DNA of 64,000 nt from Lebetimonas sp. JH292 (lineage in GTDB: Bacteria; Campylobacterota; Campylobacteria; Campylobacterales; Nautiliaceae). Position 1 is the first letter of the stretch. Every line of letters begins with the position of its first letter. Below the pieces are notes generated by a model. The model ran no database searches and was not told the DNA's origin. It saw only the letters and a list, made by a program, of their open reading frames with translations. The translations under genes and the position numbers were made by a program. The stretch lies in the NCBI RefSeq assembly GCF_000523275.1, contig NZ_ATHQ01000001.1, forward strand, positions 1,123,289-1,187,288, read 5' to 3'. Below, piece by piece: positions 14,974-37,287 of this stretch.

Positions 14974-15726
14974 ATGGATAAAATTAAATTGTTAAAAAAC
15001 GGAGTGAGTAAAGAAAAATTTTTGAGAATCTTTCAAGAAGATTATCCGGGGTTTGATTTTGAGAGTATGTTTGATATTTTAAAATTTCAAGGTCTACCTT
15101 TAACGATTATAGATGAAAAAATATTTTTAAAAACTGCTTTAATTTCTTTTAAAGATACTGAATATGTGGTTGTTGACATTGAAGTAAACAATTCAAAGCC
15201 CCAAAGAGGGCAGGTTATTGAAATAGGAGCGGTTAAAATTAAAAATTTAAAAATAACCGACAGTTTTGATTTTTTAATTTATGCGGATGATGTTCCTGTT
15301 TTTGTGGAAAGAGTGACGGGAATCAGCCAAAAAATGCTTGAAAATGAAATGTCTCAAAAAGAAATTTTAAAAAAATTCAGACTTTTTTTGGGAGATTCTG
15401 TTTTTGTTGCACATCCTGCGGATTTCGATTTTAATTTTTTGGTTTATCAATTTGAAAAAGAGAATTTAGGCAAACTTCTTAATAGATGTGTATGTACGCT
15501 GAGTTTGTCTCAAAAAACCATTAAAGCCAGCCGTTACGGTCTTAAATATTTGATGGAAGAGCTTGATTTGCCTGAAGAAACCCACCACAGGGCTCTTGGA
15601 GATGCCAGGACAACCGCGAGGGTGTTTTTAAAATGTTTGGAAAATCTGCCAAAGGAGATACTCAGTGCGGAAGATTTGATTGAATTTGCAAAACCAAGAA
15701 AAAATAAAAATAAATCTAAGAGTTAA
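14974..15726 (+). CDS. DnaQ-family 3'-5' exonuclease (Pol III epsilon-like)
   Basis: 250 residues. About 55 N-terminal residues of unknown fold precede a DEDDh exonuclease domain. Exo I is VVVDIEVNN (Asp and Glu as D-x-E, with Val instead of the usual Thr), Exo II is FVAHPADFDFNFL, and Exo III is HHRALGDARTT with the catalytic His and Asp. It is probably the proofreading subunit-like exonuclease of DNA polymerase III; an independent repair nuclease is possible. A TATAAT at 14950-14955 could be its -10. Its end overlaps the convergent diguanylate-cyclase gene by 11 bp. Confidence 0.85.
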   Translation: MDKIKLLKNGVSKEKFLRIFQEDYPGFDFESMFDILKFQGLPLTIIDEKIFLKTALISFKDTEYVVVDIEVNNSKPQRGQVIEIGAVKIKNLKITDSFDFLIYADDVPVFVERVTGISQKMLENEMSQKEILKKFRLFLGDSVFVAHPADFDFNFLVYQFEKENLGKLLNRCVCTLSLSQKTIKASRYGLKYLMEELDLPEETHHRALGDARTTARVFLKCLENLPKEILSAEDLIEFAKPRKNKNKSKS

Positions 15727-17235
15727 TATAATTTTGATATTCTTTTATTTCTTTGTTGAATAATACAACTTTGTTTCGTCCTGTATTTTTGGCTTCATAA
15801 AGGGCAATGTCGGCTAATTTTATACATTCCCATCCTTGTTTGCATTGGTCAGGATAAATACTGGTTCCTATACTTACGGTTTTTATGATACTTTTTCCGT
15901 TATCAAGTTCAATTTCTGTTTTTTCCATAGTGTTTTTTATTTTTTCGGCAATTTTTTTTGCATCATCGATAGATTTTATGTTTTGTAAAATAATTAAAAA
16001 TTCTTCACCTCCATAACGAATGGCTATATCGCTTTTTCTTATTGATTTTTTTAAAATTTCTGATAACTTTTTCAATGTTATATCTCCTGATTTATGTCCG
16101 TAAGTATCGTTTACCTGTTTGAAATGATCTATGTCTATCATTAAAAATCCAAGCTTTGTATTTTCCCTGTTTGCAGAAGCTATTAAAATAGGAAGCGTAT
16201 TTTCTAAATATCTTCTGTTAAATAGTCCTGTTAATGGGTCTTTTATAGTTTGCTGATGTAAAAGCTCTAATGTATATTTTGATTCAATAATAGATGATAT
16301 TTCGTTTAAATAAGCTTTTATAAAAGGAATTATATTTTTTATGCTCTTTATTTCATTTTCATTATTTATCATTATTTTTAATATTCCGTTAAAATTGCCG
16401 CTGTTTGAAAAAGGGATGCAGATATAATCATTTTCACAAAAATGTCTTTGGCAGATCTTTGGATATGTTAAGGAATTTATCTCTTTTTTTGTTCTATAAG
16501 CTCTGCATAAAGTAAAATTTTCTTCTACATCACAGCATTCTTCCCCTTCAGCTTTATAATAAATTATTTCTTTTTTATTATTGTCTATTCCTATTAAGAT
16601 AAAATTATTAATTCCGTGATTTTTAATTACATTAATTAATCTGTTTAATACACTTTTGATATTTAAATCTTCTTCTATTAATCTTTTGAATTTAAAAATT
16701 TCACTCAACTGTTCAATTGTCTCTTTTGCGTCGTTTAAAGGGTCGGAACTTTTCTCTTTTTCTATTAGTGTTGTATATTTGTTTTCTATAACGCCGAAAC
16801 TTTCTTTGAGTTTATTTAAAAAATAATTATAAGAATTTACAAAATCTTTTGCTTCTCCACCTAATTTTGTAGATATTTGTTGGTCAAATTTACCTTTTAA
16901 AATTTCTTTTGTGCTTTTATTTATATTTTCAAAAATTTCCAGATACGGATTTAAATAATAATTAACAATTAAAATTATAATTATTAAAGAAATTAAGGCA
17001 ATAAATAATTTTTCATAATTTTCTTTTGCATCGTATGTAATTTTTATAATATTTTTTTTGTTTAATTTAATGTAAGAAGGGGTTTTGAATTTAGAAACAG
17101 ACTTTTAATAAAAGAATTTTCATTTTGAATAACAGTGTTTGAAAAATTTAAAAACGAGTAAGTAATCGCAATGGTTCTTAAAGCGGTGGTAATAATCATA
17201 ATTAAAGCAATAATAAGTAAAATTCTTTTTTTCAT
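15716..17235 (-). pseudogene. Membrane diguanylate cyclase with GAF-like domain, one frameshift
   Basis: Starts at ATG 17235 (ATGA overlap with the glnD stop). Order: TM1, a short periplasmic part, then, after a frame change near 17105-17115, TM2 (LFIALISLIIIILIVNYY), a HAMP-like linker, a Cys-rich GAF-like segment and a GGDEF domain. The active site is RYGGEEF, and an RxxD inhibitory site (RKSD) precedes it, so the enzyme would make c-di-GMP with product inhibition. The span is 1520 nt, two more than a multiple of three, consistent with one lost base. In the second frame KSVSKFKTPSYIKLN continues smoothly. Apart from this one lesion the gene is intact, so it may be a recent mutation, a phase-variable locus or a sequencing error. 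Confidence 0.8.
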
Positions 17236-19712: not shown

Positions 19713-20774
19713 TTGATTTTGAAAAAATTGAAAAATCGTGAAAAATTGTCTTTAAAAGAAGCGGCTAAATTATATGATATGGACCTTTTTACCTTAGGGG
19801 AAACGGCTAATACAATAAGGGAAAAAAAATTTGGCAAAAAAACATATTTTAATATCAACAGGCATATAAATCCGAGCAATATTTGTAAAGATGTCTGTAA
19901 ATTCTGTGCTTTTTCCGCCCATAGAAAAAATCCCAATCCCTATACGTTAAGTATTGAAGAATGTGTTGAAATTGCTAAAAACGCTTATGCCAAAGGGGCA
20001 AAAGAGGTTCATATAGTTTCAGCCCATAATCCGTATGTGGGGTATGAGTATTATATGAATATAGTAAAAGCCATAAGAGGGGAACTTCCAGATATTCATA
20101 TAAAAGCGTTTACGGCCGCTGAGGTTAATTTTTTTAGCGGACTAAGTGGAAAAAGTTATGAAAAAGTGCTTGATGATATGATTGAAGCCGGTGTGGATTC
20201 TATGCCCGGGGGCGGGGCTGAAATATTTGATGAAAAAATTAGGGCTAAAATCTGCAAAGACAAAGTGGGCAGTGAAAACTGGCTTAAAATTCACGAACTT
20301 TGGCACAAACGCGGAAAAAAATCAAATGCAACCATGTTGTTCGGACATATTGAAAACAGAGCCCATAGGATTGATCATATATTAAGAATAAGGGATTTAC
20401 AGGAAAAAACAGGCGGTTTTAACGCATTTATACCTCTTGTTTATCAGCGAAAAAATAATTATTTAAATGTAAAAAAATTTTTAAGCGGGGTGGAAATTTT
20501 AAAAACTATGGCAATAAGCAGAATTTTACTTGAAAATATTCCTAATATTAAAGCGTATTGGGTCACTACAACACTTAATTTGTCTCTTGTGGCGCAAAAT
20601 TACGGGGCAAACGATATTGACGGAACGATTGAAAAAGAATCAATTAATTCAGCGGCCGGCGCTAATTCGGCAAACGGTTTGAAACTTGACGAACTTGTGC
20701 ATCTTATAAAAGACAGCGGATATATCCCTGTAGAAAGGGATAGTTTATATAACGAATTGAAAATTTATAAATAA
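19713..20774 (+). CDS. mqnE: Aminofutalosine synthase MqnE
   Basis: About 353 residues. Radical-SAM enzyme of the futalosine pathway that builds aminofutalosine from 3-enolpyruvoyl-benzoate and SAM, towards menaquinone, the quinone of anaerobic Campylobacterota. The cluster motif is CKDVCKFCAF; further signatures are VHIVSAHNPYVGYEYY, IKAFTAAEV and DSMPGGGAEIFDEKIRAKIC. There is no ATG near the start. TTG 19707 directly abuts the AAAGGA Shine-Dalgarno, so TTG 19713 (6 bp spacing) is preferred. Its end overlaps the convergent response-regulator gene by 10 bp. Confidence 0.9.
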   Translation: MILKKLKNREKLSLKEAAKLYDMDLFTLGETANTIREKKFGKKTYFNINRHINPSNICKDVCKFCAFSAHRKNPNPYTLSIEECVEIAKNAYAKGAKEVHIVSAHNPYVGYEYYMNIVKAIRGELPDIHIKAFTAAEVNFFSGLSGKSYEKVLDDMIEAGVDSMPGGGAEIFDEKIRAKICKDKVGSENWLKIHELWHKRGKKSNATMLFGHIENRAHRIDHILRIRDLQEKTGGFNAFIPLVYQRKNNYLNVKKFLSGVEILKTMAISRILLENIPNIKAYWVTTTLNLSLVAQNYGANDIDGTIEKESINSAAGANSANGLKLDELVHLIKDSGYIPVERDSLYNELKIYK

Positions 20775-21121
20775 GAGGCGATTTTATCTAAAAGAAGTGC
20801 AGGATTAACAGGTTTTATTATTACTTCCTTTGCACCTTTGTTTAACGCTTCAACTCTTTTTGAATCGTCTGTAGTTAAAACTATCACAGGTATGTTTATA
20901 CATTCCGGTTTTTTGGAAGGGAGGACTTCCAGAAAATCAAGTCCACCCATTAATGGCATAATTAAATCTAAAAGAATCAAATCAATATCGGAAGTGAGTT
21001 TATGCAAAGCGTCAATACCGTTTTCAGCTTCAATTACTTCATAATCGCCCTTTTTTAATATGGCTTCTAATAATTTTCTGTTTGTGGCGTCATCATCCAC
21101 TATAAGAATTTTTTTTGGCAT
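20765..21121 (-). CDS. CheY-like single-domain response regulator
   Basis: 118 residues, receiver domain only. The acidic pair is Asp9/Asp10 (ILIVDDD), the phospho-acceptor Asp52 lies in LILLDLIMPLMGG, the conserved Thr in VIVLTTDD and the Lys in IIKPVNP. With no output domain it probably acts by protein contact or as a phosphorelay intermediate. Its ATG overlaps the stop of the broken hybrid kinase gene (TAATG), making it the last gene of a five-gene signalling operon. Confidence 0.88.
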   Translation of the reverse strand: MPKKILIVDDDATNRKLLEAILKKGDYEVIEAENGIDALHKLTSDIDLILLDLIMPLMGGLDFLEVLPSKKPECINIPVIVLTTDDSKRVEALNKGAKEVIIKPVNPALLLDKIASYL

Positions 21122-24100
21122 TATCTAACCTTTTTTATAGAATTTAGAATATTTTCTGGTAATAAATCGTTTAAAATTATATCAGATTTTATCTTTTTAT
21201 CTGTTAATGCAATAGATTTTACTATTATTGTTTTTTAACGTTTATATTAAATTTTTAATATCATTTGAATTAAGTAAATTTGACAATTCTTTAATACTTT
21301 TTGCAATTTTAGCTTCAGGAATTATTAAATACTGGGCAAGTAAATCTGTATCCGAAGCAATTATAATATTTTCTTCTTTTTGAATGTTTTGTGGATTTTC
21401 CTCAATATTTTTTTCATTTGTTTTTTCTGTTTCCAAACCTTTATAATTAAATTTTCTTCTTTTTCAAAATTTTGGAATATTTATTTTTAGAAATATTTTC
21501 AAGAACTCTTAATAACTCTTCTTTTTTAATTGGTTTTGAAATATAATCATCCATACCGGCACCTAAAAATCTTTCCCTGTCTCCTTTTAAAACATTAGCG
21601 GTAACTACAATAATCGGAATGTGATTTATTCCTTCTTCCTCTTCAAATTCAAGTATTTCCTGAGTTGCTTCTATTCCGTCCATTACAGGCATTTGTGCGT
21701 CCATAAAAATTACATCGTATTTTTGAGGATTTGAAGAATATTTATTAAATGCTTCCAATCCGTTATGGGCCTCATCGGCCTCAATTCCCCATATTTTTCA
21801 ATGTTGTTTTTAAAAGTTTCATATTTATCGGATTGTCTTCTGCAATTAATGCATGTAATTCATAAATTTCTTTTTTATGTTCCGCTTTTTTTACTTCCCT
21901 TTTTATTTCTTCTTTTGTAAACAGTATGGCATTATAGAATTTTGAAGGAACGTTAGGGTCATAAATATTAAACTGTTTAAAATCAAGATTATCTATTTCT
22001 TTTTTATAAACCAGGGAAGAAATTAATATTACTGGATAATCAATATTTTGTAAATTTTTAATTTTATCTTTTTCACTTTCTTCATAAAATACGATTACTC
22101 CATTTATAATTTCATTTTTTGATAATTTGTTAAGTTCACTTGCTTCATTAAAACCTATTTTATTTATTCCAAAGAAGTTTAAATATTCAAGGCTTAAATC
22201 TTTTCTTTTTGTGTCTTTAAAAGTGTTAAGAATAGCAAATGTTAAATTTGAGAAGCTATTTTTTCTGTATTTAGGTGTTGCATCTACAATATTAAACCAT
22301 AAATCAAAATAAAATTTACTTCCTTTGTTTATTTCACTCTCAACTTTAATATTTCCGCCCATCATTTCAATATAGGATTTAACAATGGTAAGACCGAGTC
22401 CCGTTCCCCCGTATTTTCTTGTTACGCTTTCGTCAGCCTGGGCAAATGCCTCAAATATTTTGTTTTTTTGCTCTTCGCTCATTCCTATACCGGTGTCTTT
22501 TACTTCAAAATAAATATTTGCCCTGTTTTCTTTGATTTCTTGGAGTTTGACATTTACTTCAATAGTTCCGTTTTTATGTGTAAATTTAATGGCGTTGTTT
22601 ATTAAGTTAGTTAAAATTTCTTTTATTTTTAATACGTCTCCTCTTACAACGGAAGGAATGTCAGGCGAAATATATGATACATATTCGATTTCTTTTTGTG
22701 CGCAAGGGGTTGCAAATACTTCCAATGTATTTTCTATTTCGTCTTCTATTTTAAAATCTATTTCTTCGAGGGTTAATTTATTGCTTTCGATTTTTGAAAC
22801 ATCCAGAATGTTGTTTACTATTTGTAACAAGTTTTCGGCGCTTTGAGCGATAGTGTTGATATAATCCTGTTGTTCGGGTGTGATTTCTGTTGTTTTAAGA
22901 AGTTCCAAAAATCCCAAAATACCGTTAAGAGGCGTTCTAATTTCATGAGACATATTTGCAAGGAATAAGGATTTTGCTTTTGAAGCTTCTTCGGATTTTT
23001 TAACAGCTTCTTGTGTAATTGCGATGGCTTCTTCTGTAATTTTCAAAGCTTCATTCATACCTTTAGGGCTGTTGATGTCTATTTGAACATTTTCACCTGT
23101 AATCGGTGCCAATTTATTTAATGTGTTTGATAACTCTTTAATATGTGTCCTTATAGTTTTATAAATATAAAAACCTAAAATTAGAATCAGGATGGCAATA
23201 ATAAAAATAACTATTGCAATATTTCTTTTTTGTATTGAATTTGAAAGCAGATTGTCAATTTGTTTATTAATGTCACTGTTTATCATATTTGCACTGTTTT
23301 TAAAATAAGAAATTCTTTTTGTGAAAAGTGAAAAATAATCCAAAGCATCAATAGGATAACCTTCAAATTTTTTGGTTGTGTAATAACCCATATTGGCCTG
23401 TTCAATATAAAAAATTAGAATCTTTAATTGAATTTTCTATTTTTATAAATTTTGGATTTTCAAAAAATATTTTAGCCTGAAGATTTTTACTCAAACTGGT
23501 AATTAAAATATTTGAATCGTGATAGTATTTCATTAATACATATTCATAATCCTTTTGACTCATAGGTAAGTCAGCGGTAATAAAATAAGATACAAATCCT
23601 CTTGTAATACCTGAATAAGCTATTATTTTATCGAGTTCGAGTTTTAACGCAAAATTCGGTTTTACTGTTTGAGGGAAATGTTGAAATATTTTAGCTTCAG
23701 TGTTTAATATCTGATTTTCCAAAACCGTATAATATGTAAAGAAATATTTATGAACATAATCTTCTTCAAAGCTGTCTATTTTTTTTCTAATTTGAGGTAA
23801 TTTGTTTAATGTGTTTAAAACACGTTTTGTAATATTGTAAAATTCGGGATTTTTATTTAAAAATTTCTTCAAATCATATATTGCCGTATCAAAAAGTTTT
23901 CTTTTTTGCATTAAAAGTTCTTTTGATTTAGGATAATTACCTTTTGACACAGAATAAATAGAGCTGATACCTCTTTCCTGGCCTAAATAAACGAGTAAAT
24001 TTTCCAGTTTATTTCCCAATTTAAGATATTTAACTACTTTTTGTTCGGACTGATATGTTTGAAATTGCTCATAAAGATTGAATCCACTCCATCCTATTAA

Positions 24101-24157
24101 AATTAAAGATGGGAGCCATATTGCAATTGCCAATAGTTTTGATAATGATAGTTTCAT
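21121..24157 (-). pseudogene. NIT-domain hybrid sensor histidine kinase with several frameshifts
   Basis: Reading through frame changes gives one long kinase of about 1010 residues. It has TM1, a periplasmic NIT (nitrate/nitrite-sensing type) domain with GQERGISSIYSVSKG (frame 24157-23402), TM2 ([20 protein letters not shown]), an H-box ([14 protein letters not shown]), an ATPase with [17 protein letters not shown] and GGTGLGL, a degenerate receiver-like part, then a receiver with IFMDAQMPVMDG, and a Glu/Lys-rich tail. Breaks: near 23400 (one extra T in a T6 run), near 21785 (one extra G in GGGG), near 21450 (A-rich) and near 21235 (A6 region). Each break restores an evidently homologous frame. 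No nonsense codons occur inside the pieces. Confidence 0.8.
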
Positions 24158-24537
24158 TGTTTTAACTCCTTAAGATTAATTTTTGCAGGGCATTTTAAAC
24201 TGTTTTTTTTAATTAGCATTTGTGCTCTGAAGTTACCTAAATTTCTGGCAGCGCATAATAAAAGTCTTGCTTTTTTTATGTTTTTCTCAACACCCCAGCC
24301 GTTCAAATATAGTTCACCGAGTAAATTCAGTGCCTGCGAGGAAGGTTTGTCAGAATTTATGGATGAATTAATTATTTGTTTTAAAAAACTGCCTGCTTCA
24401 ATAAATAAAGCATTTGCTTTTTGTGGGTCTGAATTTAGCAGACGTTTTGCTTTTTGAATATCTTTAAATGCGTTAAAATATAAACTTTGGGATAAAAGAA
24501 ACGTGACTACAAAGAAGAATAAAATGACTTTTTTCAT
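24154..24537 (-). CDS. Secreted Sel1-like repeat protein
   Basis: 127 residues: an N-terminal signal peptide (KKVILFFFVVTFLLSQ), then helices containing a Sel1-like motif, LGELYLNGWGVEKNIKKARLL, followed by a partial second repeat. It is probably periplasmic. ATGA overlaps join it to the Hpt-like gene upstream and the kinase gene downstream, so it may serve as an accessory to the NIT periplasmic sensor. There is one Cys in the repeat and one near the end, and no lipobox. Confidence 0.7.
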   Translation of the reverse strand: MKKVILFFFVVTFLLSQSLYFNAFKDIQKAKRLLNSDPQKANALFIEAGSFLKQIINSSINSDKPSSQALNLLGELYLNGWGVEKNIKKARLLLCAARNLGNFRAQMLIKKNSLKCPAKINLKELKQ

Positions 24538-25455
24538 TTGTTTTCCTTTAATATGTTTTGTAAATCATTTAATGAATTAATTTTTGTATTTAGCAGTTTT
24601 TCAATAAATTTTTTATCTTTTTGAAATTTTTGTTCATCTTGTGTTTCCAGATAAACTCTTATAGTGTTTAAGACTATATTTTTAATTTTCGGGTCTATTT
24701 CAATATTTTTATTTGCAGATTTTTGATTCTCTTTTTTTGTATTTCTATCGTTTATCAAGGGTGAAATAAAATTATAAAATTTATCAGCAAGATTTTTAAT
24801 AATACTGATATCTGTTTCTTTCTTGGCTTCTTCATCGATGGTTTTAAAAATTAAAGCAAGATTTGAAAGTCGTAGATTTAAAGAGGCTCCTTTTAAAAAG
24901 TGGGCTATTTCGTGTATTTCTTTGTAATTTTGTTTTTCAATAGCTTTATATAAAGTGTCTTTTTTTTCTTCATATTGTTTTAACAAATCGTTAAATAGTT
25001 CATCGGTCATGTTTTGGTCTATGCCCAAATCTTCCATAGCGGTATTTAATTCTTTTTCAATTATTTCATCAATATCATCTTTTTGTGAAAATATTTTTTC
25101 ACATTCGCTTATGTTGTCTTCAAAATTAAGTTCAATAGGTTGCTCTTTTTCTTCTGTCTTCGATAATGTTTACTTCCGGCGTTTGTAAAGCCTCCATTAT
25201 TTCTTCTTTTGGGGAAATTTCTTTTTCTTCATTTTTTTCCAATTGAAATATATCCAAATTTTTTAATGTTATCAGATTTTCTTTTGTAATTTTGAAAATA
25301 TTGTTTTTTATCTGAATGGATTTTTTATTTAAAACGGCCATTTCAAGTTCGAGTCGCGTTATAACCTGTGACATTTCTTCCAAAGTTATATTTAACGTGT
25401 TTAACAAATTTTTGCCAAGTGCAATTATTTTTCCGTTTTCATAGACAATTAGCAT
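24534..25455 (-). pseudogene. Hpt phosphotransfer protein with novel N-terminus, one frameshift
   Basis: ATG 25455 begins about 107 codons (MLIVYENGKIIALGKNLLNT and so on) that end prematurely at 25132. In the next frame the protein continues as KTEEKEQPIELNFEDNISEC into an Hpt domain with phospho-accepting His in HEIAHFLKGASLNL. The span is 922 nt, one more than a multiple of three, consistent with one inserted base in the A-rich stretch near 25150. The N-terminal part (about 100 residues) is not a family I recognise. The Hpt would relay phosphate between the hybrid kinase and the single-domain regulator of the same operon. Confidence 0.7.
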
Positions 25456-25880
25456 TACTGTTCCTTTTCTCTCATTTCTTTATAAATTTTTTCATATTTT
25501 TCTTTATCCTCTTTTGAAACAGGTCTTCTTGCGGCAATATAACCCGTTTTTACACCGTTTTCATCAAATACCGGTTCAATAAAAGCTTCCACCCAGTAAT
25601 ATTTGCCGTCTTTTCTCAAATTTTTAATAAATCCCCTGAATTTTTCATTTCTTTCAATTGTATCCCACATCTGTTTAAAAACGGCTTTTGGCATATCCGG
25701 ATGTCTTATAATGTTGTGGGGCTGGCCTATCAATTCCTGTTTTGAATATCCTGCTAATTTACAAAAAGGAGTGTTAGCATATGTAATTATACCTTTTAAA
25801 TCTGTTTTACTTATTATGGGTCTTCCTAAAACTCCTACATCTTCAAATGTAACTTCTTCATTGATTGGGGTAGGTTTCAT
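25455..25880 (-). CDS. Single PAS-domain, Aer-like sensor protein (paralogue)
   Basis: 141 residues: one PAS domain with ITYANTPFCKLAGYSKQELIG, NIIRHPDMPKAVF, NLRKDGKYYWVEAFIEP and GYIAARRP, closely similar to the protein at 7162-7695. There is no output domain or membrane segment. It is first in the signalling operon and overlaps the Hpt gene (TAATG). Pairing with either the Hpt protein or an MCP is possible. A redox (FAD) role is inferred from the Aer resemblance only. It is divergent from rplI and shares a symmetric promoter region with it. Confidence 0.85.
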   Translation of the reverse strand: MKPTPINEEVTFEDVGVLGRPIISKTDLKGIITYANTPFCKLAGYSKQELIGQPHNIIRHPDMPKAVFKQMWDTIERNEKFRGFIKNLRKDGKYYWVEAFIEPVFDENGVKTGYIAARRPVSKEDKEKYEKIYKEMREKEQ

Positions 25881-34565: not shown

Positions 34566-35355
34566 ACATATTTTTAAAGAAATAAAATCACTTCCGCCTT
34601 TGCCAAAAAGTATAATGGAAATTCAGAGAATCACAAATGACGCAAATTCTTCAATTTCTGATTTGGTAAAAGTTGTAAAAGAAGACCCTATGCTTACGGC
34701 AAATTTGCTTAAAGCCGCAAATTCCCCGCTTTACGGATTTACAAAACAGATAAAAAGTGTTGATCAAGCTGTTTCGTTATTCGGTATGGCAACAGTTAAA
34801 GGCTTCGCCGTTTCTTTCGCAATAAAAAATACACTGAAATTTGATTTGAGTGCATATGGAGTGGATGAAAATAGATTTCATGATGTTTCAACAAAAAGAA
34901 ACGCCCTGGTTCTTTACTGGTATAAAAAAAATAGAAAATATTTAGATATATTGGCTACTAATTCATTTTTAATAGACCTGGGTGCCGTTGTTATATCTTT
35001 GGTATTAAAAAAACTTGGAAAAGATAATGAATTCAAATCAAAATTAACTATTGACAACAGAAATGAAATAGAAAAAGAATTTGTTGGAATGACAACAGCG
35101 GAAGTAAACGCAAAAATTTTTACTCATTGGGGATTTAGTGAAGATTTAACCCTTTCTATGAAAAATATTGATGCTCCAAACGGTACTTATGAAAAAGAAA
35201 GTGCATCACTCCTGAGCTTAAAAACATTAATAAATCTCTTAAATGGATTTAATGAAGAAAATGAAAAAAAAGCGATAAAAATCGCCAACAAATATAATTT
35301 AGATACAGATTCTTTAAATGTTGCTATTGCTTTAATTTTAAAAGGAAATGATTGA
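34558..35355 (+). CDS. HDOD-domain signalling protein
   Basis: 265 residues from ATG 34558 (Shine-Dalgarno AAGGAG; a TTG directly before it is less likely). HDOD domain at about 5-200: SLPPLPKSIMEIQRI, NLLKAANSPLYGF, VSLFGMATVKGFAVSF. HDOD proteins lack the catalytic metal residues of HD hydrolases and act as regulatory scaffolds. It takes the place where mshE would follow in an MSHA operon, and overlaps both neighbours. Role unknown; the position suggests control of the pilus. Confidence 0.75.
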   Translation: MNEHIFKEIKSLPPLPKSIMEIQRITNDANSSISDLVKVVKEDPMLTANLLKAANSPLYGFTKQIKSVDQAVSLFGMATVKGFAVSFAIKNTLKFDLSAYGVDENRFHDVSTKRNALVLYWYKKNRKYLDILATNSFLIDLGAVVISLVLKKLGKDNEFKSKLTIDNRNEIEKEFVGMTTAEVNAKIFTHWGFSEDLTLSMKNIDAPNGTYEKESASLLSLKTLINLLNGFNEENEKKAIKIANKYNLDTDSLNVAIALILKGND

Positions 35356-37287
35356 GGGAATTTATATACAAACTTATAAAAGGAATTGACAGAAAAGATA
35401 TTCCAAGGGATAAAAGAGATATAGTTAATGATTTACTAACTTTAAAAATAGTGACAAACAAAAAAACAATAAAATTAAAGTCCAAATATATACCTGGCAA
35501 AGTTGATATCACACAAAAAGGTTACGGTTTTTTAATTCCCCTTTCAAAAGGAAAAGATTTATTAATAGAATCTTATCATTTAAATTCGGCCTCTAAAGGC
35601 GATTTAGTAATTGCGGAAAAACTTTTCAATAAAAAAGGTAGGCCTAAAGCAAAAGTTGTTTATATTATTGAAAAAGCTTTTGCTTATACTGTCGGATATT
35701 TGACTTTTGAAATTAAAAACGGAAAAAAAATTCCATTAATTAGAAATATAAAAACCAATCTGCCGATTTGTGTAAATGTTACTAAGAAAGCCCTAAAAAA
35801 ACTTCCTCCAAATGCGGTGTTTAAAATTATACATCTACAATCGAGGAAATTCTAGGTGTGTTGGATGATCCATGGGTTGATGAAAAAATTTCACTTGCTC
35901 TTTATAATAAAAAAGAAGAGTTTTCGAAATTTGCCATACTTGAAGCTGAATCTTATGGTGATTTTGTAGATAAAAGTATGTATCCGCAAAGGATTGATTT
36001 AACAGAAAAATATTTTTGTACCATAGACCCTGTGAGCGCAAAAGATCATGACGATGCAATTTATTTTGATAAAGATGAAAATGCTCTTTATGTTGCTATT
36101 GCAGATGTGAGCGAATATGTATATTTAAATGGAAATATAGACAAAGAAGCAAAAGAAAGAGGGTTTAGTATTTATTTTCCGCATAAATCTGTTCCTATGC
36201 TACCTCGTGCACTTAGTGAAAACATTTGCTCACTTAAAGAAAATGAAGATAGAATAAAGTTTACTTTTAAAATAGTTTTAGATAAAAATAATAATGTAAT
36301 TAAAGAAGAATTATTTGAAGCAATTATAAATTCAAAAAGAAAATATTCTTATGAAAGAGTAGATGAATTTTTAGCCGGAAAATTGGAAAATATTGACAAA
36401 ACAGATGAAGAAATACTTTCATGGTTATTACCTTTGTGGAAGAAAATTAAACATATAAGATATGAGAGATTAAAAACGGGTCTTGATTTTGAAAGCGATG
36501 AAATCAGAATGAGTCTTGATGAAAATAGGAATGATTAAAGATGTAACAATAGAAGAAGAGACACCGTCTCATTCATTAATAGAAGATTGTATGCTGTCTT
36601 GCAAATAAAGCTGCAGCTAAAATGATTGATTACGGAATTTTCAGAGTGCATGAAAAACCATCAACAACTACAATCAAATGAACTTTATAATAATTTATTA
36701 TCCCTTAGGAATTGAAATAAATGAAAAAGAAGATTTTGTAAAAAACGTAAAAAATATTACAAATACAGGCAAAAAAACTTAGAATAAAAAAAGAGATGGA
36801 TAAATTAATAATCAAATCTCAGCAGCAGGCCAGTTACGATGCCGAAAATTTAGGACATTACGCTTTGGGATTTGATAAATATACGCATTTTACTTCACCA
36901 ATTAGAAGGTATTCTGATTTAACCCTGCACAGATTGCTTAAATCAATTATAAAAAATGATGAAAAAATGAAAAATTTTATTTTAAGAAATATTGAAGCAC
37001 TGGTTGTTAAAATCAGTGAGCTTGAGAGAGAAGCTATGAAAGTAGAATGGGATTTTTATGACAGAAAATATGCAAGAGTTGCTAAAATGAATATTGGACA
37101 GATTTATAAAGGCATAATTGAAGATACTGAAATTCCGCCAATTGCAAAAATCTTGGAAGATAAACTTCTTGGAAGCAGGGTGTTTTTAAAAGATAAAAAA
37201 CAATTTAATTTGTTTGAAAAAGTGGATATTGAAATAATTGATTCAAATATTGCAACTGCAAAAATAAGAGGAAAAGTAAAAGATTAG
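35352..37287 (+). pseudogene. rnr: Ribonuclease R (rnr/vacB), multiple one-base frameshifts
   Basis: Homology runs through the whole span: cold-shock-type N-domain (VDITQKGYGFLIPLSKG), catalytic RNB domain with CTIDPVSAKDHDDAIYF (the Asp cluster), HKSVPMLPRALSENICSL, and after the breaks [18 protein letters not shown]. It would be a 3'-5' exoribonuclease. The first break is near 35840. Five more lie between about 36525 and 36760, each a one-base change (twice an extra A giving AGGA), after which the next frame continues the RNase R sequence. The usual S1 domain looks shortened at the C-terminus. No in-frame nonsense codons are seen. The start is TTG overlapping the HDOD stop. Confidence 0.8.

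Follow-up and report, generated by a model that had tools for sequence, protein, structure and literature searches.

A five-gene signalling operon and its conservation

The stretch of Lebetimonas sp. JH292 DNA considered here (64,000 nucleotides of contig NZ_ATHQ01000001.1, hereafter the window) carries on its minus strand, from position 25880 to position 20765, an operon of five codirectional genes that we call A to E (Table 1). An earlier note, made from the sequence alone, had read them as encoding a PAS protein, an Hpt protein, a Sel1-like protein, a NIT-domain hybrid kinase and a CheY-like receiver; all five are present on that strand and their Pfam domains agree with this reading. The parts are known, and the whole is a conserved signalling operon whose combination of parts we did not find described. 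The note knew of no described system of this composition and, likewise, no account of the operon was found in the open-licence PMC literature, subscription papers lying outside that scope; a whole-word search of the Nautilia profundicola genome paper (PMC2628731) returned neither 'NIT' nor 'histidine kinase'.

Table 1. Genes and gene pieces of the operon, with window positions (aa, amino acids; ORF, open reading frame; E, E-value)
Feature	Positions	Strand	Evidence
Gene A, 141-aa stand-alone Aer-type PAS protein	25455..25880	-	Pfam PAS_3 (E 2e-19), PAS, PAS_9; PDB 8dik
Gene B, 5' open piece: likely shortened PAS-like N-terminus and start of linker	25132..25455	-	ORF; hhalign 94%
Gene B, 3' open piece: Hpt, phospho-acceptor histidine AHFLKGASLNLRL	24534..25037	-	Pfam Hpt E 1.6e-5
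Gene C, 127-aa Sel1-repeat protein, hydrophobic signal-like N-terminus	24154..24537	-	Pfam Sel1 E 1.3e-7
Gene D, piece 1: transmembrane segment 1 and most of the periplasmic NIT domain	23402..24157	-	Pfam NIT E 2e-7
Gene D, piece 2: end of NIT, transmembrane segment 2, HisKA (SHEIRTPL), HATPase_c, receiver-like segment, start of receiver	21781..23391	-	Pfam HisKA E 5e-24, HATPase_c E 4e-28; layout from alignment of intact relatives
Gene D, piece 3: receiver, phospho-acceptor Asp VIFMDAQMPVMDG	21447..21758	-	Pfam Response_reg E 1e-18
Gene D, remnants of C-terminal receiver-like segment, in more than one frame	21127..21436	-	tblastn with the intact G001 protein (matches of its C-terminal pieces at 21433-21206 and 21222-21127)
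Gene E, 118-aa stand-alone receiver without output domain	20765..21121	-	Pfam Response_reg E 1e-23

The central component is the kinase D, in which a NIT domain lies between two transmembrane segments and is followed by a histidine kinase and a receiver. The proposed NIT-domain hybrid kinase is borne out by Pfam matches to NIT, HisKA, HATPase_c and Response_reg, with one amendment to its composition: two further stretches, one between the ATPase and the receiver and one at the C-terminus, look receiver-like in the alignment when inspected by eye, without an acidic pocket, so that such segments stand on either side of the true receiver. The catalytic residues are invariant. The HisKA histidine and the receiver aspartate, acidic pair, threonine and lysine occur in 135 of 135 aligned kinases (some loci being duplicates), and the histidine and aspartate in 128 of 128 after duplicate removal.

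The three smaller proteins also match their first description. The best PDB match of A is the PAS domain of Aer (8dik, E 1.2e-32), in line with its assignment as Aer-like; we read A as an Aer-type flavin PAS protein, a putative binder of flavin adenine dinucleotide. Protein C begins with MKK and a hydrophobic stretch and has one Sel1 repeat by Pfam, features kept in relatives; it had been described as secreted, and the basic-then-hydrophobic N-terminus suggests that it is indeed apparently exported. Protein E has a Response_reg domain only, with the acidic pocket, Asp-52, Thr-84 and Lys-103 of a receiver. Among 120 aligned relatives each of these residues is retained in 119 or 120 (the aspartate in 119), and the nearest solved relatives of E are PleD and CheY-type receivers.

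A search for protein C in 41 genomes found it in 15, the window's own among them. The other fourteen loci (L016-L029) show the order A-B-C-D-E wherever the contig reaches, L027 and L028 being truncated at contig ends, and their B (331-619 aa) and D (1008-1069 aa) genes are open. The thirteen of them that belong to the window's family share the same flanks where the contig reaches, and L029, from a different family, carries the same five genes at another genomic place. In the window, one flank is an rplI-hslV-hslU run and the other is a gene reading as mqnE followed by a glnD-like gene, both assigned by eye. In other families uvrC (identified by Pfam) usually precedes the operon, which often faces lon; there, a small gene frequently lies upstream that is weakly dciA-like (17.5 bits, under the cut-off of 24).

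On a larger scale, a D profile matched at E 1e-150 in 133 of the 397 genomes of the class, 15 of the 133 having two matches with at most two candidates scored per genome, and D was found under eight Campylobacterota family labels (f1, f4, f6, f7, f11, f16, f18 and f20). Sixty of these 133 genomes, picked for family coverage and not at random, were fetched as regions, and a named scan via E added at least 80 loci from Nautiliaceae, Hydrogenimonas, Sulfurovum, Sulfurimonas, Sulfurospirillum, Campylobacteraceae and others. Loci with no kinase ORF above the score used were dropped (3 of the 60 fetched regions, L099, L110 and L112, and 12 of the 80 named loci); four named-scan loci from other phyla or classes had no kinase of this type. 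D was detected at 139 loci, 132 of them distinct.

Gene content could be compared at 102 distinct loci with adequate flanks. A, B, D and E occur together at 47 of them, B, D and E at 24, all five genes at 14, and B, C, D and E at 13; the rarer patterns are B with D (two loci), D with E (one) and A with D and E (one). The earlier note had staked its case on a five-gene order conserved in other genomes. That order recurs intact in relatives and is thus no product of chance; the gene order B-D-E, its core, is found at 98 of the 102 loci. Named loci had been fetched by E and are hence uninformative on its presence; where D or C alone had been used for retrieval (L016-L119), 57 of 61 loci have B-D-E. 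Similarly, E follows D at 129 of 131 distinct loci and at 68 of the 70 that were not fetched via E (L016-L119). A strict recount lost E at 12 loci, the E model also matching the receiver of D; ten were restored from other scans, and E was not found at L098 and L107.

Two minor observations concern the kinases themselves. Genomes of family f6 (G025, G084, G241, G243, G246, G255, G259, G285 and others) hold a second D-like kinase that matches the profile from about residue 264 and has no NIT domain. The idea that the long kinases of Campylobacteraceae have B fused into them was rejected from L103 (1402 aa), where inspection by eye found a low-complexity linker and no Hpt motif.

The NIT sensor and its candidate ligand

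The sensor region of D resembles one solved protein far more than any other. The window piece and two homologues score above the Pfam cut-off for NIT, and one of these homologues, L062, is matched over nearly the full length of the domain (115 bits, E 9e-33). When a profile of 54 D sensor regions was compared with the PDB, the nitrate receptor NasR of Klebsiella oxytoca (4akk) was the sole match up to E 0.1, with E 1.1e-7. Compared with NasR, a structural model of the L160 sensor (predicted local distance difference test (pLDDT) score of 95) reaches Z 26.4 across 269 residues, with a root mean square deviation of 3.6, and Foldseek gives E 1.2e-5 for the same pair. Among the matches listed, the next-best fold is the nitrate receptor McpN at Z 11.1, within the range of unrelated helical bundles, and the TorS sensor also appears at Z 9.5-10.4, values that unrelated helical bundles reach too.

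The likeness extends to individual residues. Arg-124, Glu-61, Arg-186 and Arg-62 (G001 numbering) are among the most conserved periplasmic residues of D. Of the aligned kinases, 118 of 124 keep Arg-62 and 122 of 126 keep Arg-186. Arg-186 aligns with residue 203 of the 4akk chain, which an offset of 27 converts to NasR Arg-176; Arg-62 then aligns with NasR residue 50, probably the second nitrate arginine. Arg-176 and Glu-175 are named as predicted pocket residues in PMC7496416. D shares with NasR the whole-domain fold, the profile match, and the Glu-Arg pair and second arginine of a candidate nitrate pocket. The two differ in what the domain controls: NasR is described as an RNA-binding antiterminator with an ANTAR output (PMC7496416), while in D the NIT domain is flanked on each side by a transmembrane segment and has a hybrid kinase as its output. 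NarX and NarQ are likewise membrane kinases with a nitrate-binding helical sensor and nitrate-binding arginines (PMC8199190); their sensor family differs from NIT and, unlike the operon, they have no separate Hpt.

From the fold model and the conserved residues, the ligand of D is most likely a small oxyanion, nitrate or nitrite. A serious competitor, to which we give somewhat less than an even chance, is that the NIT kinase senses another cue, such as a different small anion or the state of C, as part of a general envelope or redox response. The conservation of Glu-61 and the three arginines argues against this competitor, as does the fact that by far the nearest fold is that of a nitrate receptor. 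Several observations tell in its favour and weigh against nitrate or nitrite. The earlier note had tied the NIT kinase to nitrate respiration, a link that the genome counts weaken: napA occurs in 108 of the 133 genomes with D and in 222 of the 264 without it, with no association, and since napA is about as frequent in both groups the presence of the operon does not indicate periplasmic nitrate reduction. Both arginines are retained in all eight napA-negative genomes with an aligned kinase (ten have a locus, out of 25 napA-negative genomes with the kinase, picked by eye from two tables). Conversely, nine kinases have another residue at Arg-62, Arg-186 or both, and in the four of their genomes for which napA status is known napA is present in 4 of 4. 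The literature adds two further points: one NIT domain of another protein has been published as not binding nitrate (PMC6381276), and the Nap system of Sulfurospirillum multivorans is reported as not nitrate-regulated (PMC6682613).

According to a review (PMC6682613), little is understood of how respiration is regulated in Campylobacterota, and the group is reported to be without classical nitrate regulators of the NarPL type, NssA being known in Wolinella. In this setting, the conserved NIT kinase relay of Sulfurimonas, Sulfurovum, Sulfurospirillum, Hydrogenimonas and Nautiliaceae is a defined candidate sensor, open to test.

A candidate phosphorelay and its output

Protein B provides the possible link between the kinase and the stand-alone receiver. 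Its Hpt motif is conserved in intact relatives, in agreement with its description as an Hpt protein, and in the window's family the part after the Hpt is conserved and looks helical. Its N-terminus, which had been called unrecognised, is indeed unrecognised by Pfam; it spans about 110 aa in many homologues and about 75 aa in the window's family. In homologues this N-terminus is a PAS fold, as judged from a model of the Hydrogenimonas form (L187, pLDDT 92) whose listed matches are PAS-type, with a modest best Z of 8.8 and a best Foldseek E of 4.4e-3, none being below 0.001. For the window's family, profile comparisons suggest that a shortened PAS domain is likely: hhalign relates its N-terminus to the Sulfurovum form (probability 94%) and the Sulfurovum form to the long form (82%, over 31 residues), the direct comparison with the long form being weak (35%). 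An alternative assignment of this N-terminus to Alba, the sole PDB-sequence profile match (E 0.38), was judged a chance hit and rejected.

We lean, slightly beyond even, towards reading the operon as a multi-step phosphorelay with a periplasmic NIT oxyanion input and a CheY-like last receiver, E, that acts on a target protein. The sequences and models show the domains, the conserved catalytic residues, the conserved gene order, the NasR fold match and the PAS-type model of B; from these we infer the ligand, what C does, what E acts on and every handover of phosphate. The membrane kinase D, presumably a dimer by analogy with NasR, would bind a small oxyanion through its periplasmic NIT domain, and the apparently exported C may dock at or near that domain and tune it, as TorT does on TorS and ExoR on ExoS. 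The ligand state would then alter autophosphorylation at the HisKA histidine of D, from which phosphate would pass first to the aspartate in D's own receiver, next to the histidine in the Hpt domain of B and finally to the aspartate of E, which would act through binding to a target protein. A cytoplasmic redox or energy input may come from A, with its flavin-type PAS, and from the PAS domain of B.

The individual arrangements have precedents. The TorT-TorS-TorR system also pairs a hybrid kinase, whose periplasmic sensor is helical, with a separate partner protein in the periplasm. TorT is not known to be a Sel1 protein, TorS contains its own Hpt, and TorR binds DNA; the operon, by comparison, encodes its Hpt as a protein of its own, and its E is without an output domain. 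In the ExoR-ExoS-ChvI (RSI) system a periplasmic Sel1-type protein works with a sensor kinase, although ExoS is not known as a NIT hybrid kinase, nor the system for an Hpt step. Protein A matches the flavin PAS of Aer and differs in that it consists of one PAS domain encoded in a kinase operon and has no receptor signalling domain. CetB is another flavin PAS protein of the Aer kind.

Several features of the wider family weigh against so complete a relay. Among the 103 distinct loci for which 4 kb of upstream sequence was available, 75 gave no C and 40 no A, which places both genes outside the core. The Hpt histidine is absent from 24 of 121 distinct B proteins, one of which, L109, is probably a mis-called ORF; through those 24 the relay cannot pass. 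They come from Sulfurospirillum-type and Campylobacteraceae-type loci, L098 (f7) and L109, and all except L109 also have no gene A. A kinase-domain tree of 110 loci places them in one clade, with L109 apart. The clade keeps its kinase and receivers intact despite having neither A nor the histidine. The earlier claim of a complete phosphorelay stands for the window's family, by domains and residues, and fails for this clade, which offers a natural experiment on the need for the relay step.

These loci also form the case for a simpler scheme, in which phosphate goes straight from D to E while B serves chiefly as a PAS scaffold or a phosphate sink, and not as an obligatory step. B, D and E are all retained in the clade whose B has no Hpt histidine, and L103 keeps D and E without a recognised B. 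On the other side, the histidine is found in 102 of 128 B proteins (97 of the 121 distinct ones) and in every window-family B that covers the Hpt, and B proteins with two or three Hpt-like motifs mostly keep it in at least one of them. We regard direct transfer as fairly unlikely in general, and retain passage through B as the preferred route.

Co-loss of gene A and of the Hpt histidine was also considered as a statistical association and rejected, a single clade plus L109 amounting to one event. The Sulfurospirillum-type loci with a B lacking the histidine (L068, L075, L077, L078, L080, L083, L085, L088, L115, L206, L212, L219, L221 and L222) keep a PAS-type N-terminus where it was read, together with an Hpt-like end without the histidine.

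The receiver E being without an output domain, its output would be by protein contact and not by DNA binding. Placed in physiological terms, the operon may be a missing, widely inherited nitrate or nitrite pathway of mostly free-living Campylobacterota, bacteria reported to be without NarXL-type regulators, joining periplasmic nitrate (NIT, tuned by the Sel1 protein) and internal redox state (flavin PAS and PAS-Hpt) into a protein-contact output via E; we hold this fuller version to be unlikely. Similarly unlikely is a variant that has E act on the flagellar motor, with the operon forming a branch of nitrate- or energy-taxis outside the chemoreceptor arrays. The size of E is that of CheY, its closest PDB relatives include CheY-type receivers beside PleD, and A is of the aerotaxis PAS type; against this, the target cannot be read from receiver similarity and the neighbours that were identified (uvrC, lon, rplI, hslV and a few others, out of a neighbourhood mostly without identification) are not chemotaxis genes.

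Split reading frames in the window

The operon had been described as partly broken, with frameshifts in the kinase and Hpt genes and the other three intact. The breaks are real in the sequence: the frames of A, C and E are uninterrupted, B carries a single split, and D falls into at least four open pieces, with more frame changes near its end. Their standing as a true feature of the species is weaker. When the window genome was compared with G001 over 464 kb, 21 of 265 matched G001 ORFs were split over frames, versus 2 of 273 in the reverse comparison, and the split ORFs are spread across the whole interval, including some that by eye read as rnr, truB, purN, pgi and hemN. This suggests frameshift errors across much of the window's assembly.

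Relative-rate counts were made of changes unique to the window or to its intact sister. They give 17:16 (window:sister) for the NIT piece and 22-25:24-25 for the kinase piece, compared with 4-5:1 for the receiver piece, 7-8:3-4 for A, 14-15:9-10 for C and 16-17:7-8 for the control rplI. Split ORFs being widespread and the sister matching or exceeding the rate of change in the NIT and kinase pieces, we take assembly error as the default explanation, and the breaks are probably mostly errors in a normal operon. A specially decaying operon, judged by its frameshifts, was rejected on the same spread of split ORFs over the compared 464 kb.

Part of the evidence pulls the other way, towards a true pseudogene cluster in this species. 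By hand count, four of 30 breaks fall in D and one in B, although the two make up 1.5% of the protein length that was compared. B and the end of D also contain gaps of 56, 13 and 23 bases, the latter two jointly keeping the frame. Together with the surplus of breaks in D, the excess of unique changes in the receiver piece leaves room for some real decay. A pseudogene cluster is nevertheless improbable in our view, with split ORFs all over the interval, some reading as housekeeping genes, with NIT and kinase pieces that evolve at the sister's pace or slower, and with A, C and E open.

Elsewhere in the window, the gene reading as RNase R (645 aa in G001) lies in three pieces at 35352-37287, and a GGDEF-type protein (552 aa in G001) at 15716-17235 has its N-terminal 48 residues in a different frame, with a gap. 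In the window genome napA is hit twice, each time scoring below its relatives' copies, and it may also be split.

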